Shown one piece after another: positions 3,498 through 9,404 of a stretch of DNA of 27,352 nucleotides. The stretch is taken from positions 1-27,352 of IMG/VR virus record IMGVR_UViG_3300035181_000319; one strand, 5' to 3'. The notes beneath the pieces are model-generated. The model did not search any database. It worked only from the letters and a program-made list of their open reading frames with translations, and was not told where the DNA came from. Source of the stretch: a virus. Made by a program: the position numbers and the translations under genes. How positions within the stretch are numbered: position 1 is the stretch's first letter; each line of letters starts with the position of its first letter.

Positions 3498-5750
3498 TTA
3501 TTCCTCCTCATTAGGTTGCGTGAGAACCGGAAGCAGATCGCACCGGCAGTTAGGGTGGAGAGGCGGATCGCCTCCGGGGAACTCGGAATCCAGGGCCACG
3601 ACCATGCCGTCCATGGCCTGACAGTCCTCGCATACCTCGTCCTGGGACACGAGCCACTGTTTGGCATCCACCACGCCGGACTCGCGGTAGCCCATGAGGT
3701 TGCCCTGGATGTCGGCGGCGGCGGTTTCCGTGCGGGCGATCATTTCACTCCGGGCGTCCCCGAAGCCGGCCGCGTCCTGGATGGCATCCGCCAATTCATC
3801 GTTGCTCAAGCCGCCCGTGATGGCCTGACTGACCAGATCCCTCAGCCCTTCGCGGGTGGTTTCGTCAATGCCTGTGACTAGCCGGGCCGCGTGTTCCTCC
3901 GCCCACGCGATGGCCTTCGTGTTCGCCTGGGTGAGCATCTCGTCCAGGGCATCCTCGCTCATGGTCCCGGTGAACTTAAAGATCTGGTCCAGAGCCTCGC
4001 TGGAACCATCCATGGCGATGCGGCCCAGCTCCTGTTTGAGCAGGTCCAGGAACGCCTCGCGCTCCTCCACCGGCAACGCCGCCAGGATCGCCTCAAGCTC
4101 CTCGCGGGTGAACTCAGCCTTGGCGATCTTTTCAGCCCGTAGATGAGCCAGCACGGCGTCACGGATGCCGGCGAAGTATCGCTTGGTGGCCGCCAGGATG
4201 CGCTTCTCGACCCGCCGGGCGATGGGACGGTTCCGGGTCAGGGGAGCTAGTGCCCTTTTTTTTTGAACCTTCCCGGCGCTGCGATTAGAGGCAGGGGGGA
4301 GGCCGGAGGCCGAGTCACGGTCCCCCCCCTGGGGAGGCTTCGGCTTTGCACCCGGCATTCCGGTCGGATCGCCTCCACCGCCCAACTTGTCCTCACCGGC
4401 TCCACCGAACAGCCCTGGAGGGGACGGGGGATTCAATTCCTTTTTCTGCTCAGGGGTCAGGGGATTCTTGCCCAAGTCCTCGCGCACTTCGTCCGGGGTG
4501 ATCACCTTCATGTCCACATACGCCTTGTGGACCTCGGCCTTCACCTTGGGGTCCGTGATTTCCTCATCTGCCCAGGCGAACTCCAGATCGTCCGCGCCCC
4601 AGCACCGGATCAGGACCTCGTTCATGACCTCGGCCCACCACTCCTTCAGCGGTTCCAGGCCCTCGGCCCGAGCCGTGGCGGCGTTGGTCTGAGCCGTGGC
4701 CCGATTGTTGTCCTTAACCAGCGCGGAGGGGCTGATGCTGAAGCACCAGCAGATGATCCTGGCCATCCACTCGTCCAGGGGGTCAGTCAGTTGGGGGTCC
4801 TTCAGGGGCTTCGTGTCCATGCCGCCCGGAACCACGATGAGTTTGCGGCGGGCCTCCAGGTTGCCCGTCAGGATGGTGTCAAACCAGTCCTGAGCCTGTT
4901 TGATCTGGTCGGGGTTCCACATTTCCGGTGCGCCCACCAATTGCTCGGGGATGTTGCCGGCCGTGTAGTAACTGATCAGGTGGAGCTGTCGCTTCAAGCC
5001 CAAGTTGATGATGTTCACCGCCTGTTCGACCGGGCTCATGCCATAGAACCGGTGGCTCCGCAGGTTGCGCGGGGCGTAGATCAGTTCATCCAGGGTGTAG
5101 TTGTTGGCGGGGAGGCCCTTGATGATCTGCTGGTAGGCGGCCTCGGGCGGGAGGGGGCGCCGACCGTTCTGGTCCACAAGGATCTTGATGGTGGCGCCGT
5201 CCATGACCTCGGGGATCTTGAAGCCCTCGGCCATCGGTCTCAGGTAGATCGTGGGGGCGTCAATAACCAGCAGATCCTCCAGCAGTTGCCTCTGCCACTG
5301 ACGGAAGGTATGGACCAGATCGGGCCGGCGAAGCGCGGTCTGCACCAGCTTCGCCCGTTCCTGGGAGGGCTCTGGCGCCTCGTCATTCAGCTTCTTCGGG
5401 CGGATGATCCAGCGCTGAGCCTCCATCTGGTCCTTGCGGGTTTCGATAGCAATACGCATGAGGTCCAGCCCGCCCGCCGCGGGGTCAGCGATGCGCCGCA
5501 GGACATCGAACCCAATGCCGGACTCGCTGGCCTCGCTCTTGGGACGGTAGTTAAGGTTTACGCCCATGGGGAAGTCGAAGGGGCGGCCCTTCACTTCCTC
5601 TGGAGCCTGCGGAGGCAGGGGTTTGTTGGGGCCGAACCAATCAGGCGCTTCACCGGTTTTGACATAGCGGATCGCGCCAGCGATTCGCTCGATGATGCCG
5701 GGCTCAAAGGGCGTTGCCTTTCCACCAGCCGGGGTTTCAGGTGTCGCCAT
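3498..5750 (-). CDS. Portal protein fused to Mu F-like head morphogenesis protein
   Basis: A 750-residue protein. Residues about 20-435 form a portal domain: a stretch near 230-260 (LRSHRFYGMSPVEQAVNIIN) and KDPQLTDPLDEWMARIICWCF...PSALVKDNNRAT (about 317-352) are typical of portal proteins, the dodecameric ring for DNA entry at one capsid vertex. A Pro/Gly-rich linker spans about 437-500. Residues about 500-745 are a Mu F/SPP1 gp7-like minor head domain, with ARTETAAADIQGNL near 672 and W....D..CEDC...DG...PPLHPNCRCDLLPV near 699-742, whose Cys and His residues probably bind metal. Portal and Mu F proteins are usually separate neighbouring genes. Nine A residues fall exactly at the junction (see findings). 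The start has AGGAGG upstream. The fusion is seen directly; any portal-only product is inference. Confidence 0.93.
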   Translation of the reverse strand: MATPETPAGGKATPFEPGIIERIAGAIRYVKTGEAPDWFGPNKPLPPQAPEEVKGRPFDFPMGVNLNYRPKSEASESGIGFDVLRRIADPAAGGLDLMRIAIETRKDQMEAQRWIIRPKKLNDEAPEPSQERAKLVQTALRRPDLVHTFRQWQRQLLEDLLVIDAPTIYLRPMAEGFKIPEVMDGATIKILVDQNGRRPLPPEAAYQQIIKGLPANNYTLDELIYAPRNLRSHRFYGMSPVEQAVNIINLGLKRQLHLISYYTAGNIPEQLVGAPEMWNPDQIKQAQDWFDTILTGNLEARRKLIVVPGGMDTKPLKDPQLTDPLDEWMARIICWCFSISPSALVKDNNRATAQTNAATARAEGLEPLKEWWAEVMNEVLIRCWGADDLEFAWADEEITDPKVKAEVHKAYVDMKVITPDEVREDLGKNPLTPEQKKELNPPSPPGLFGGAGEDKLGGGGDPTGMPGAKPKPPQGGDRDSASGLPPASNRSAGKVQKKRALAPLTRNRPIARRVEKRILAATKRYFAGIRDAVLAHLRAEKIAKAEFTREELEAILAALPVEEREAFLDLLKQELGRIAMDGSSEALDQIFKFTGTMSEDALDEMLTQANTKAIAWAEEHAARLVTGIDETTREGLRDLVSQAITGGLSNDELADAIQDAAGFGDARSEMIARTETAAADIQGNLMGYRESGVVDAKQWLVSQDEVCEDCQAMDGMVVALDSEFPGGDPPLHPNCRCDLLPVLTQPNEEE
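4256..4264 (-). repeat. A9 homopolymer at the portal/Mu F junction
   Basis: On the coding strand this reads C-A9-GGG and encodes Q-K-K-R near residue 497-500, at the end of the Pro/Gly-rich linker. Losing one A gives CAA AAA AAA GGG CAC TAG, an immediate stop. Gaining one A gives a stop after about 25 codons. Either slip therefore yields a portal of roughly 500 residues without the Mu F domain. Runs of nine A are known to promote polymerase slippage in bacteria; that it happens here is inference. Confidence 0.85.
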
Positions 5751-5774: not shown

Positions 5775-7298
5775 TTAACCGCCGGCGTCGGCTTTCGCCA
5801 TCAACTTGGATTTCGCCGCCTCGGCTTCCCGGCGGAGGTATTCAAAGAATCCCATGCCGCCCCCGCCCGAGGACAGGTAGCTCAAGGCGCCGTCGAAAGC
5901 GTCCACCTGGTCGTCATGGGCCGCGTTGGGGAAGGTGGCGAGCTCATCCACGAAGTCAGAGACCCACGGGGCACCCTCGGGGAGATAAACAAGCCCGGCC
6001 TCCAGTATGGGGGTCACGGCGTTGGCGCGGGCCACCTTGTCCCGGTCCACAGGGATGGGGATGATCGGGATGCGGGTCTCGCGCTTCATCTCCTGTATCA
6101 AGCTCTGGCCGCTGGCCTTGTCCTCAACCAGCACTACGGACGGAGCCCACTTGGCGGCCTGTGCCGGCACCGCCCGCTTCAATTCGGGGAACTCCACCTG
6201 TGCCCTCCAGACATCTAGGACAAAGTAGCGGTTCTTTCCGGCCCCCATGGTGACACACACGCTGAAGTCCGCCTGGTCGCCCTTCTTGAAGGCCGTGTCC
6301 CAGAACTGGACCACATTCGTGATGCCCAGGTCCTTGACCAGTTGCCGGGGGTCATCCGTGGTCACACGATGCCATTGCCACCAGTCCCGCTTGAAGATGG
6401 CACCCTCTGCCGCCGCCGGCCGCTGTTGGTAGAGGCTGGCCCACACGCGAGAGCCCACGGCCCGCTTGATCCTGTCCAGTTCCTCAATTGAGTAACGCTC
6501 TGGATGGAGGGGGTCGCCCTCCTTCCTCAAAAGGCGCCCGTCGAAGGTGCTGAACTCGTCCTGCTCTGCCACCGCCGGGAAGTTTATGACCGTCCAGGGG
6601 TCGCCCTCGCCGTCCTTCATCTGCTTCAGCAGCCGGCCCACAAGATCGTCCTCATGCCAGCGGGTGAGGATGATCAGCATACCGGCGCCCGGCATCCGGC
6701 GGGTGTAGAAGGTGGACTGATACCACTCCCACACCTTGTCCCGGTAGGTCTTGCTGTTCGCCTGTTCGGCATCCTTGATGGGATCGTCAATCTGGAGGAT
6801 GTCGCCGCCCATGCCCGTGATGCCACCGCCCACGCCCGCGCTACGGTAGGAACCCTTGTGGTCCAGGACCTCAAATAGCTCTGAGGTTCGAACCCGTGAG
6901 CCGTCACGTCCGGCCTTGAGCCCAGGAATGCGGGTCTCGGGGAAGATCCAGCCGTAAGCCGGGTCATCCATGATGCGCTGGACATCCCGGTTGATGCGGT
7001 TGGATAGGTCAGCCGAATAGCTGGTGGAGATGATCGACAGGTCGGGGTTCCTGCCCAGGGCATAGGCTGGGAACCGCCGGCTTACAATCTCGGTCTTGCC
7101 GTGGCGGGGCGGCGCCTCAAGGATCAGGCGTGGGGACTTCCTGGCCTCAACATCATCAAGGAACTGGTCCAGGGCCGTCGCTACCTCATGCGCGAACCAC
7201 CCGGCCTTGTAGCCGGGGAAGGTCTCGATGATGAAGCGGATGAGCTTCTTGCGGGCCAGTTCCCGCTTGATGTCAGCCAGGGGTGGGAGGTTCTTCAC
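5775..7298 (-). CDS. terL: Terminase large subunit (packaging ATPase/nuclease)
   Basis: A 507-residue protein, normal length for the family. The ATPase half has a Walker A-type motif EAPPRHGKTE (about 61-70), Walker B ILQIDDP (about 167-173) and the coupling motif LTRWHEDD (about 211-218). The nuclease half has the RNase H-like acidic cluster: FWDTAF (Asp about 333), VLVEDKASG (about 389-397) and HDDQVDAFDG (about 461-470). The enzyme pumps DNA into the prohead through the portal and cuts the concatemer. The start is GTG at 7298, three bases after the small-subunit stop and in the same operon. The portal starts 24 bases downstream. All key residues appear intact. Confidence 0.96.
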   Translation of the reverse strand: MKNLPPLADIKRELARKKLIRFIIETFPGYKAGWFAHEVATALDQFLDDVEARKSPRLILEAPPRHGKTEIVSRRFPAYALGRNPDLSIISTSYSADLSNRINRDVQRIMDDPAYGWIFPETRIPGLKAGRDGSRVRTSELFEVLDHKGSYRSAGVGGGITGMGGDILQIDDPIKDAEQANSKTYRDKVWEWYQSTFYTRRMPGAGMLIILTRWHEDDLVGRLLKQMKDGEGDPWTVINFPAVAEQDEFSTFDGRLLRKEGDPLHPERYSIEELDRIKRAVGSRVWASLYQQRPAAAEGAIFKRDWWQWHRVTTDDPRQLVKDLGITNVVQFWDTAFKKGDQADFSVCVTMGAGKNRYFVLDVWRAQVEFPELKRAVPAQAAKWAPSVVLVEDKASGQSLIQEMKRETRIPIIPIPVDRDKVARANAVTPILEAGLVYLPEGAPWVSDFVDELATFPNAAHDDQVDAFDGALSYLSSGGGGMGFFEYLRREAEAAKSKLMAKADAGG

Positions 7299-7832: not shown

Positions 7833-9362
7833 TTACTCCTCGGGGGTCTGTGGTTCCTCTGGCAGGGCGCCAAATTCGACGGGGCCCACCGCCTCGGTGG
7901 CCTTCTTCGCATCGCCCTTGATGAAAACCAGGACATTCTGGTGGACTTTGCAGAGCTTGCGGCTGGATTCGAAGCTCCGGCCGGCCCGGATGGCGGCGCT
8001 GCCCACGGCGTTGACCAGGATGCCCTCGTTGTAGAAGGCGGCCCCCGCCTGCTCGAACATGCCAATCGTGTGGGGGACGAAGCTGCGGTAGTTGCCCTTC
8101 TTGTCCCGGACATCGCCCACTACCCAGACGATGAAGGCGTTGGGCTTAAGCCTGGCCACGGCCTTCTGGATGATGTCGTTGTAGAGGCGCAGGAACTCCG
8201 GGTATTCCTTGTTGCTGATGTCGGCCGGGTCGTCGCTGTAGACCTCCAGGTCCGCGTAGGGCGGGCAGCTTAGGATCATGTCGGCCTGGAAGTCATCGGG
8301 CAGCACCTGGTCCATCAGCAGGCTGTCGGTGCAGATCCACTCCGGTTTCGGGAAACCCTTGCCGTGGAAGATTTCGTTGGCCTGATGGCGGTTGGCGTCC
8401 ACCTGCTCCTGCCGAAGATCAAGGCCCATGTAGCGGCGGCCCAGCAGCCCGGCGACGACACCACGGACGCTGCCCCCGGCGAATGGGTCCAGAACCAGGC
8501 CAGAGGGAGGGCAGAACCAGCGGTAGGCCAGTTCACACAGCACGGGGTCAAAGATGCTGGTTCCGCTGCCCGACTCCAGGATCTTGGCGGAAACGGGGTC
8601 AAGATCTTCAATGGCCCGATTCCCGGCCACATAGGTCAGGCGGCCCGTCACAGTTGCGGGCGCGGCCCCATGGCGTGGGCTGGACCCGCCCGCGTATTCC
8701 ATTGCCTTTGCCTTGGCCGCCTCCCGCTTCGTCTTGTCTGGCTGCAGCAGCGTGTCGCTCTTAAGCAGGTTCTCGCCCCGCCCCACCTCGGACTTGATGC
8801 CAAAGGTCATCCACGCACGCTTCCGGTCCTGCCAGTAGCCCTGTCGGCTGTCGAGGATGCTGAAGGGGGGCACACCGAAGCGCTCGGCCAGGGTCGCGGA
8901 GGCTGCGCCCTTGTCCGGCCCCGCCCCACCATCGGGCTCCTTCCCGGCCAGTTCGTCCAACAGGGCCTGTATCCCGGCGTCCTGGGTTTCGACATCGGCC
9001 AGAAGCTGGTCCAGGATGGCTTGGTCTCGGGTGGCCAGTTCGGTGATCGGGTCCAGGACGGCGAGGGCCAGGCGCTCCTCCTCCGGGGTGAGTTCCACGA
9101 TGGTAGCCGGGATGGTCGGCAGGCCCTGGCGCATGGCCTCCTCCACTCGGGCGTGCCCGTCCAGCACATGGCCCGTGGTCTTGTTCACGATGATGGTCTT
9201 CAGCCAACCAAGCTCCTTCATGCTCCCCCGCAGGGCGTCCATCTGGGTGCCAGGGTGGCGGCGGAAGTTAAGCGGGTTCGCCAGCAGGTCATCTGGCTTC
9301 ACATCGCCATGCCCCACGATGCGGGACTTGATCAGGGCGGCGGCGTGTTCGGGTTTTGCCAC
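7833..9362 (-). CDS. ParB-like domain fused to DNA methyltransferase
   Basis: A 509-residue protein if started at GTG 9362, which has AAAGGAGG seven bases upstream; a GTG at 9383 lies upstream of that site and is less likely. Residues about 15-110 are a ParB/Srx N-terminal domain with VLDGHARVEEAMRQG. A linker follows. The methyltransferase domain has the SAM-binding motif LVLDPFAGGSVRG (about 289-301) and then the catalytic-loop motif ILSCPPYADLE (about 363-373). SAM motif before catalytic motif is the alpha/gamma-type order. The motif IV core is SCPPY rather than the usual D/N/S-PP-Y. It probably modifies phage DNA amino groups, perhaps N4-cytosine or N6-adenine. It precedes the terminase genes, as in many phages. 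Confidence 0.85.
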   Translation of the reverse strand: MAKPEHAAALIKSRIVGHGDVKPDDLLANPLNFRRHPGTQMDALRGSMKELGWLKTIIVNKTTGHVLDGHARVEEAMRQGLPTIPATIVELTPEEERLALAVLDPITELATRDQAILDQLLADVETQDAGIQALLDELAGKEPDGGAGPDKGAASATLAERFGVPPFSILDSRQGYWQDRKRAWMTFGIKSEVGRGENLLKSDTLLQPDKTKREAAKAKAMEYAGGSSPRHGAAPATVTGRLTYVAGNRAIEDLDPVSAKILESGSGTSIFDPVLCELAYRWFCPPSGLVLDPFAGGSVRGVVAGLLGRRYMGLDLRQEQVDANRHQANEIFHGKGFPKPEWICTDSLLMDQVLPDDFQADMILSCPPYADLEVYSDDPADISNKEYPEFLRLYNDIIQKAVARLKPNAFIVWVVGDVRDKKGNYRSFVPHTIGMFEQAGAAFYNEGILVNAVGSAAIRAGRSFESSRKLCKVHQNVLVFIKGDAKKATEAVGPVEFGALPEEPQTPEE

Positions 9363-9404
9363 GGTCTGCCTCCTTTTGGGCACAGGATAGCAGGTTGGGG
9401 CGCG

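Follow-up and report, generated by a model that had tools for sequence, protein, structure and literature searches.

A run of nine A's, placed where the portal part of a phage gene gives way to its MuF part, is with a probability of about 0.82 a programmed site of transcriptional slippage (realignment), by which a single gene would yield both portal and portal-MuF subunits. The gene lies on the minus strand of the window, i.e., the whole stretch of 27,352 nucleotides that was analysed. Computation has established the site itself, the selection that keeps it at the level of nucleotides, the proximity of stops in either slip frame and the existence of relatives that depend on a slip. Two products made by slippage, as proposed in the original prediction, are supported comparatively: by an A-run in 30 clusters of related genes, by nine relatives that are split at the run, by stops that appear selected and by alternative signals at the same joint. 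The features of the gene and its neighbour are the following.

3498..5750, minus strand: gene for the portal-MuF fusion, with 750 codons in the zero frame (open reading frame and translation, Pfam, phrog_2662)
4476..5345, minus strand: portal domain, Pfam PF04860, residues 136-425 (Pfam Phage_portal, 2.5e-20)
4257..4430, minus strand: linker, predicted disordered, residues 441-498 (AlphaFold2 pLDDT < 50)
4256..4264, minus strand: A9 run, the putative slippery site, codons CAA AAA AAA AGG, Q496-R499 (sequence; conserved in relatives)
4247..4249, minus strand: TAG that ends the 500-aa product (...QKKGH) when one A is lost
4159..4161, minus strand: TGA met with one A more or after a -1 ribosomal shift; 530-aa product
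3501..4229, minus strand: MuF part, about residues 508-750 (Pfam; AlphaFold2 helices from 509)
3534-3845, minus strand: Pfam Phage_Mu_F, residues 636-739, 2.6e-16
5775..7298, minus strand: terminase large subunit, same direction, just upstream of the portal-MuF gene (Pfam Terminase_6N/6C)

Positions 4256-4264 of the window read TTTTTTTTT (T9), and the coding strand, which is the minus strand, has GTT CAA AAA AAA AGG GCA CTA as codons 495-501. The A9 run is the only homopolymer of at least nine nucleotides in the window, the GC content of which is 63%. The portal and MuF domains belong to one family profile, phrog_2662, which matches residues 96-748 with an E value of 6e-100. In the AlphaFold2 model of the portal-MuF protein, the mean pLDDT of which (67.5) makes it good for coarse reading only, residues 441-498 have a pLDDT below 50 and the first MuF helix begins at residue 509, which places the run (codons 496-499) at the very end of the predicted disordered linker, before the first MuF helix. 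With the run in this position, the whole portal domain would be retained after a slip in either direction.

Consider the three lengths that the run may take in a transcript. When the run is unslipped, the gene encodes 750 aa. When one A is lost (A8), the product ends as ...VQKKGH* after 500 aa, with the TAG two codons past the run, and when one A is gained (A10), the product ends after 530 aa, with the TGA 31 codons past the run. The original prediction had put the run exactly at the transition from portal to MuF, had let the unslipped frame add the MuF part and had let both slips leave a portal of normal length with an immediate TAG for one A fewer, and in all this it agrees with the sequence; the early stop for one A more also stands, but its distance, claimed as about 25 codons, is 31. 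In the proposed mechanism, RNA polymerase would copy most transcripts faithfully, to be translated into the 750-aa portal-MuF protein, while some transcripts would gain or lose an A, and on these the ribosomes would halt at 500 or 530 aa, each product being a complete portal without a MuF domain. Both types of subunit would then assemble into one ring, where the MuF domain would be found inside the head on some of the subunits only.

The run is retained among close relatives. An IMG/VR scan gave 19 loci, 16 of which bear the run at identities from 100% down to 54%: A9 or A10 is kept in L002-L014 together with L018, in L015 (63% identity, A9) and in L016 (54%, A10). Behind an A9 stands GG or GT, and an A10 lies partly in an AAG codon, the final G of which comes next. 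The frame is thus preserved in every case, and A9 differs from A10 by a substitution between Arg or Ser and Lys, not by an indel. In L014, the Gln beside the run has become Glu with the run retained, and no frame-changing length variant of the run was found among the 14 close relatives. The same linker has a second homopolymer at 4322-4329 (C8 on the plus strand, G8 on the coding strand); it is G9 in L009 and L010 and absent in L011 and L012, i.e., its conservation is unlike that of the A-run.

Six further scans brought the sample to 329 loci with 154 distinct portals, grouped in 119 clusters at 80% portal identity, where portal and MuF are fused in one open reading frame in 87 clusters and found in different open reading frames in 16, the other 16 having no detected MuF; most of these relatives are metagenomic contigs. 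In the cluster representatives (949,851 bases), 29 runs of at least nine A/T fall in portal/MuF linkers, which make up 25.8 kb, and one falls in the other 924 kb. This single non-linker run (L128, position 4444) is located in the gene for the 789-aa 'portal protein' of the cultured Thermoanaerobacterium phage THSA-485A, and again at a portal/MuF joint: the last 250 residues of the protein match the MuF end of PHROG 2662 (4e-35), and the predicted slip products have 539 and 544 aa. THSA-485A is the only named isolate with the A-run, and a search for recoding signals in Brevundimonas phages, Sonali and MMB025 found none. The linker runs are A9 in 15 cases and A10 in 14; there is no A8 and nothing longer. 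With 1000 synonymous codon shuffles of each fused gene as the null, linker runs of at least nine A's are expected in 1.22 of the 87 fused clusters, with a shuffle maximum of 6, and they are observed in 21; for L002, the joint sequence of which is identical to that of the window, such a run appeared in 1 of 1000 shuffles. In total, 30 diverged clusters have A9 or A10 at the joint, and the original prediction has thereby survived the refutation by non-conservation that it had itself named.

Transcriptional slippage requires close stops in both frames, and the fused A-run genes have them. In these clusters, the distance to the first stop is 6.0 codons in the +1 frame against 17.2 expected (0/300), and 16.2 codons in the -1 frame against 28.2 expected (7/300). 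No such effect was found in clusters without a signal or in the -1 frame of the clusters with heptamer signals described below. This proximity of stops in the two slip frames thus appears to be selected.

In eight split clusters (L173, L187, L237, L240, L251, L254, L321 and L322), the zero-frame portal open reading frame crosses A9 or A10 and stops soon after, and the MuF open reading frame spans the same run in the -1 frame. L332, which is 64% identical to L173 and comes from a different metagenome, is split in the same manner in another codon phase. Read from their sequences, these nine relatives would have to slip at the run in order to fuse MuF to the portal, and their polarity is reversed: the zero frame gives the portal alone in the nine, while it gives the portal-MuF fusion in the window. 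Fusion would take A11 in three of the split clusters, a length never found in fused genes. In four other split clusters (L017, L062, L079 and L205), the frame change is +1 and coincides with GGAGG-NNN-CTT-C; when a +1 shift is made at CTT_C in L017, the result is IAKRRLL-KPINRNG, which aligns without gaps to VQKKRALAPLTRNR of the window. L215, L227, L061, L088 and L093, which look like ordinary separate genes or are unclear in their arrangement, were left out of the recoding count. In L088, L061 and L093, MuF is a separate gene, and in this family a portal that lacks MuF would accordingly seem to be functional.

The rival accounts of the run can be weighed against these results. That it just encodes a lysine-rich linker is very improbable: the linker end is indeed rich in Lys and Arg in most relatives, but the excess of runs (21 clusters versus 1.2) is calculated against synonymous shuffles, AAA is the minority Lys codon of the window gene (9 AAA, 31 AAG) and is nonetheless always the one used in the run, and there is a frame change at the run in nine relatives. 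The run also occupies all three codon phases, where it encodes QKKR, GKKKV or LKKN, and lysine demand is therefore no explanation; the pattern fits selection acting on the run at the nucleotide level. The least probable account is chance or sequencing artefact, i.e., an ordinary fusion with an accidental homopolymer, and split relatives that are miscalled. Some sequencing methods are prone to errors in homopolymers and the relatives are metagenomic, but the enrichment of runs does not depend on how frames are called, an A11, which is absent from fused genes, would have to be assumed in three split clusters, and L017, L062, L079 and L205 shift at a motif that is no homopolymer; with this +1 class and L332, sequencing error in the split relatives was rejected. 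A contingency tract, where gain or loss of an A in the DNA would toggle MuF between phage generations (phase variation), is improbable as well. Neighbouring clusters may be fused or split, with 6 fused/split changes among the A-run clusters on the portal tree, as phase variation would have it, but the 14 close relatives have no frame-changing length difference, the lengths stay at 9-10, L173 and L332 are both split although they are only 64% alike and from different metagenomes, and other relatives use ribosomal frameshift signals, which are incapable of phase-varying.

The remaining rival, which is unlikely but less so, lets the run act in translation, by a -1 slip at A_AAA_AAA or A_AAA_AAG of the kind known from E. 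coli dnaX; the outcome would be the 530-aa portal or, in the split relatives, the fusion. An in-frame A_AAA_AAA is always present within A9, and in the window it supplies a zero-frame X_XXY_YYZ heptamer; relatives with A6 or A7 have dnaX-like heptamers, Shine-Dalgarno (SD) sequences and hairpins at the same place, and all nine split A-run relatives require a -1 shift. The stimulators, however, are missing from the A-run sites. SD cores lie upstream of 0 of 30 A-run sites and of 14 of 24 heptamer sites (Fisher p = 6e-7), and in the window no AGGAG or GGAGG was found at -22 to -5 of A9. When the 55 nt downstream of each site are folded and compared with dinucleotide shuffles, the mean z is -2.1 for heptamer sites, against +0.11 for fused A-run, -0.36 for split A-run and -0.27 for signal-less clusters, i.e., no downstream hairpin was found in the A-run class. 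A -1 frameshift mechanism shared by all A-runs was rejected on these grounds. Moreover, the runs exceed the seven A's that a ribosome needs, with A8 absent, and early stops occur in both slip frames, most strongly in +1. Heptamer sites, where both stimulators are present, thus have the look of classical -1 frameshifting and A-run sites that of bare polymerase slippage, and because SD sequence and hairpin are absent from the latter, transcriptional slippage is favoured there, not proven, over ribosomal. Since every A9 contains an in-frame A_AAA_AAA, ribosomal slippage may also contribute.

When the same joint was scanned for signals other than A-runs, the zero-frame heptamers A_AAA_AAG, A_AAA_AAA, G_GGA_AAA and G_GGA_AAG were scored. 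In the first sample, they are enriched in the linker alone, with counts of 35 there against 6.9 expected, 1 in the portal body against 2.6 and 4 in the MuF body against 6.2. In the full sample, a linker heptamer is found in 45 fused clusters against 9.7 expected from synonymous shuffles, a linker heptamer with an upstream SD core in 14 against 0.58, and an in-frame GGAGG-NNN-CTT-C in 3 against 0.00, where the heptamer set and the SD-CTT motif (unlike the A-run) were drawn up once the first 54 clusters had been inspected, and the later scans added L205, L243 and all the A-run splits, such that the two sets are not fully independent. In a clade where all members are fused (L030, L031, L032, L036, L048, L071 and L316), the joint has AGGAGGT, about 14 nt, G_GGA_AAA/G and a stable hairpin a few nt downstream, a cassette that reads as a strong -1 frameshift signal. 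GGAGG-NNN-CTT-C is also present at the joint of L033, L035 and L243, where portal and MuF share a frame and where it hints at a +1 shift that yields a short product; its spacer codon is TTA in L033 and ACA in L035 with the motif unchanged. Recognised recoding signals were looked for in all 87 fused clusters, and none was found in 39 (about 45%), from which it follows that recoding at the joint, as predicted here, is common and neither universal nor obligatory.

A tree of the 119 portals, built by a quick method and moderately supported, requires 18 changes of the A-run label and 47 changes when all classes are counted, and on it the window clade (A-run, fused) is the sister of L017 and L062 (+1 motif, split). 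From the class changes across the tree, and from sister clades with different signals, it appears that portal with and without MuF has been reached repeatedly, with different signals and in both polarities. Because slippery signals of several kinds recur at this joint, the two versions of the portal are most likely made from one gene in these phages, and many long 'portal proteins' in databases are then probably incomplete product descriptions. Two of the MuF parts have intein-like insertions (L017:5370-6920 and L058:4399-7443), which interrupt the HPN-CRC motif; they match PF14890 Intein_splicing at E values of 4e-8 and 6e-6, below the curated cut-off, and the one in L017 has an HN|C end. L067 has an insertion of similar size.

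Programmed slippage is familiar in dnaX, IS elements and secretion genes, as is frameshifting in phage tail chaperones. The closest likeness is dnaX of Thermus thermophilus, where an A9 lies within a single long open reading frame and slips give a shorter product without the C-terminal part (PMC5009743, PMC3711429), and where close stops in both non-zero frames have been described (PMC5009743); the products there are DNA polymerase subunits, whereas here they are a portal and a minor head protein, and the slippage is predicted. Across bacteria, the dnaX joint uses ribosomal frameshifting in some species and transcriptional slippage in others, with the long product in the zero frame in some and shifted in others (-1 in E. 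coli, with the polarity reversed elsewhere). The portal-MuF family is alike in both respects, but it adds a third solution, +1 shifting at SD-CTT. This solution resembles prfB (RF2), where CTTT stands three nucleotides after the SD-like AGGGGG (PMC12421855), since L017, L062, L079 and L205 have GGAGG, three nucleotides and CTT at the frame change; unlike in prfB, no stop codon follows the CTT, and the motif is absent from the window. Phage lambda gpG/gpGT is likewise an assembly gene, from which slippage makes a short protein and an extended one in a ratio, and G_GGA_AAA/G heptamers are found in both systems, but gpG/gpGT is a tail chaperone, whereas the present joint belongs to the head module and the A-run of the window has no stimulators. 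The two functions are found in SPP1 as the gp6 portal and the gp7 MuF protein, but in two genes. The SEA-PHAGES label 'portal and MuF-like fusion protein' annotates such fusions in Arthrobacter phages. In the open-access literature covered by the search, no recoding at the portal/MuF boundary was found, and portal proteins go unmentioned in the available text of a 2016 review on recoding and of a 2013 survey of frameshifts in prokaryotes.

A portal ring has about twelve subunits, and a ring made of fusions only would carry twelve MuF domains, a number that slippage would lower without a second gene. We infer RNA polymerase as the slipping agent, as well as the slip frequency, the mixed ring and the purpose of setting MuF copy number, and mixed subunits would in this case tether MuF to the portal ring. 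In reporters, frameshifting amounts to 40% for 9 A, 63% for 11 A and 10% for 7 A (PMC3711429); at 40% slippage, several MuF domains would remain in the ring if assembly did not select among subunits. The MuF protein gp7 of SPP1 binds the portal and is present in 1-2 copies per capsid (PMC5576092), and only about a quarter of the virions without the minor head protein are infectious (PMC6316719). It is somewhat probable that a large group of tailed phages builds mixed portal rings, where slippage or -1/+1 frameshifting at the same joint sets the number of MuF-bearing subunits. If true, the mixed ring would break the symmetry of the portal and stand in for a separately encoded minor head protein. 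That a single joint has recoding signals of three different mechanisms, and in both polarities, argues strongly for a selected ratio of portal to portal-MuF, and the signals offer a direct handle on the role of the MuF protein and on its low copy number per capsid.

The surroundings of the gene have features of their own. Downstream of it, at 857-2868 on the minus strand, are open reading frames of 391 and 277 aa without a Pfam or PHROG match, and adjoining the terminase genes, at 7833-9383 on the minus strand, is a gene that combines a ParB-like N-terminal part with a C-terminal part like an N6/N4 DNA methylase.
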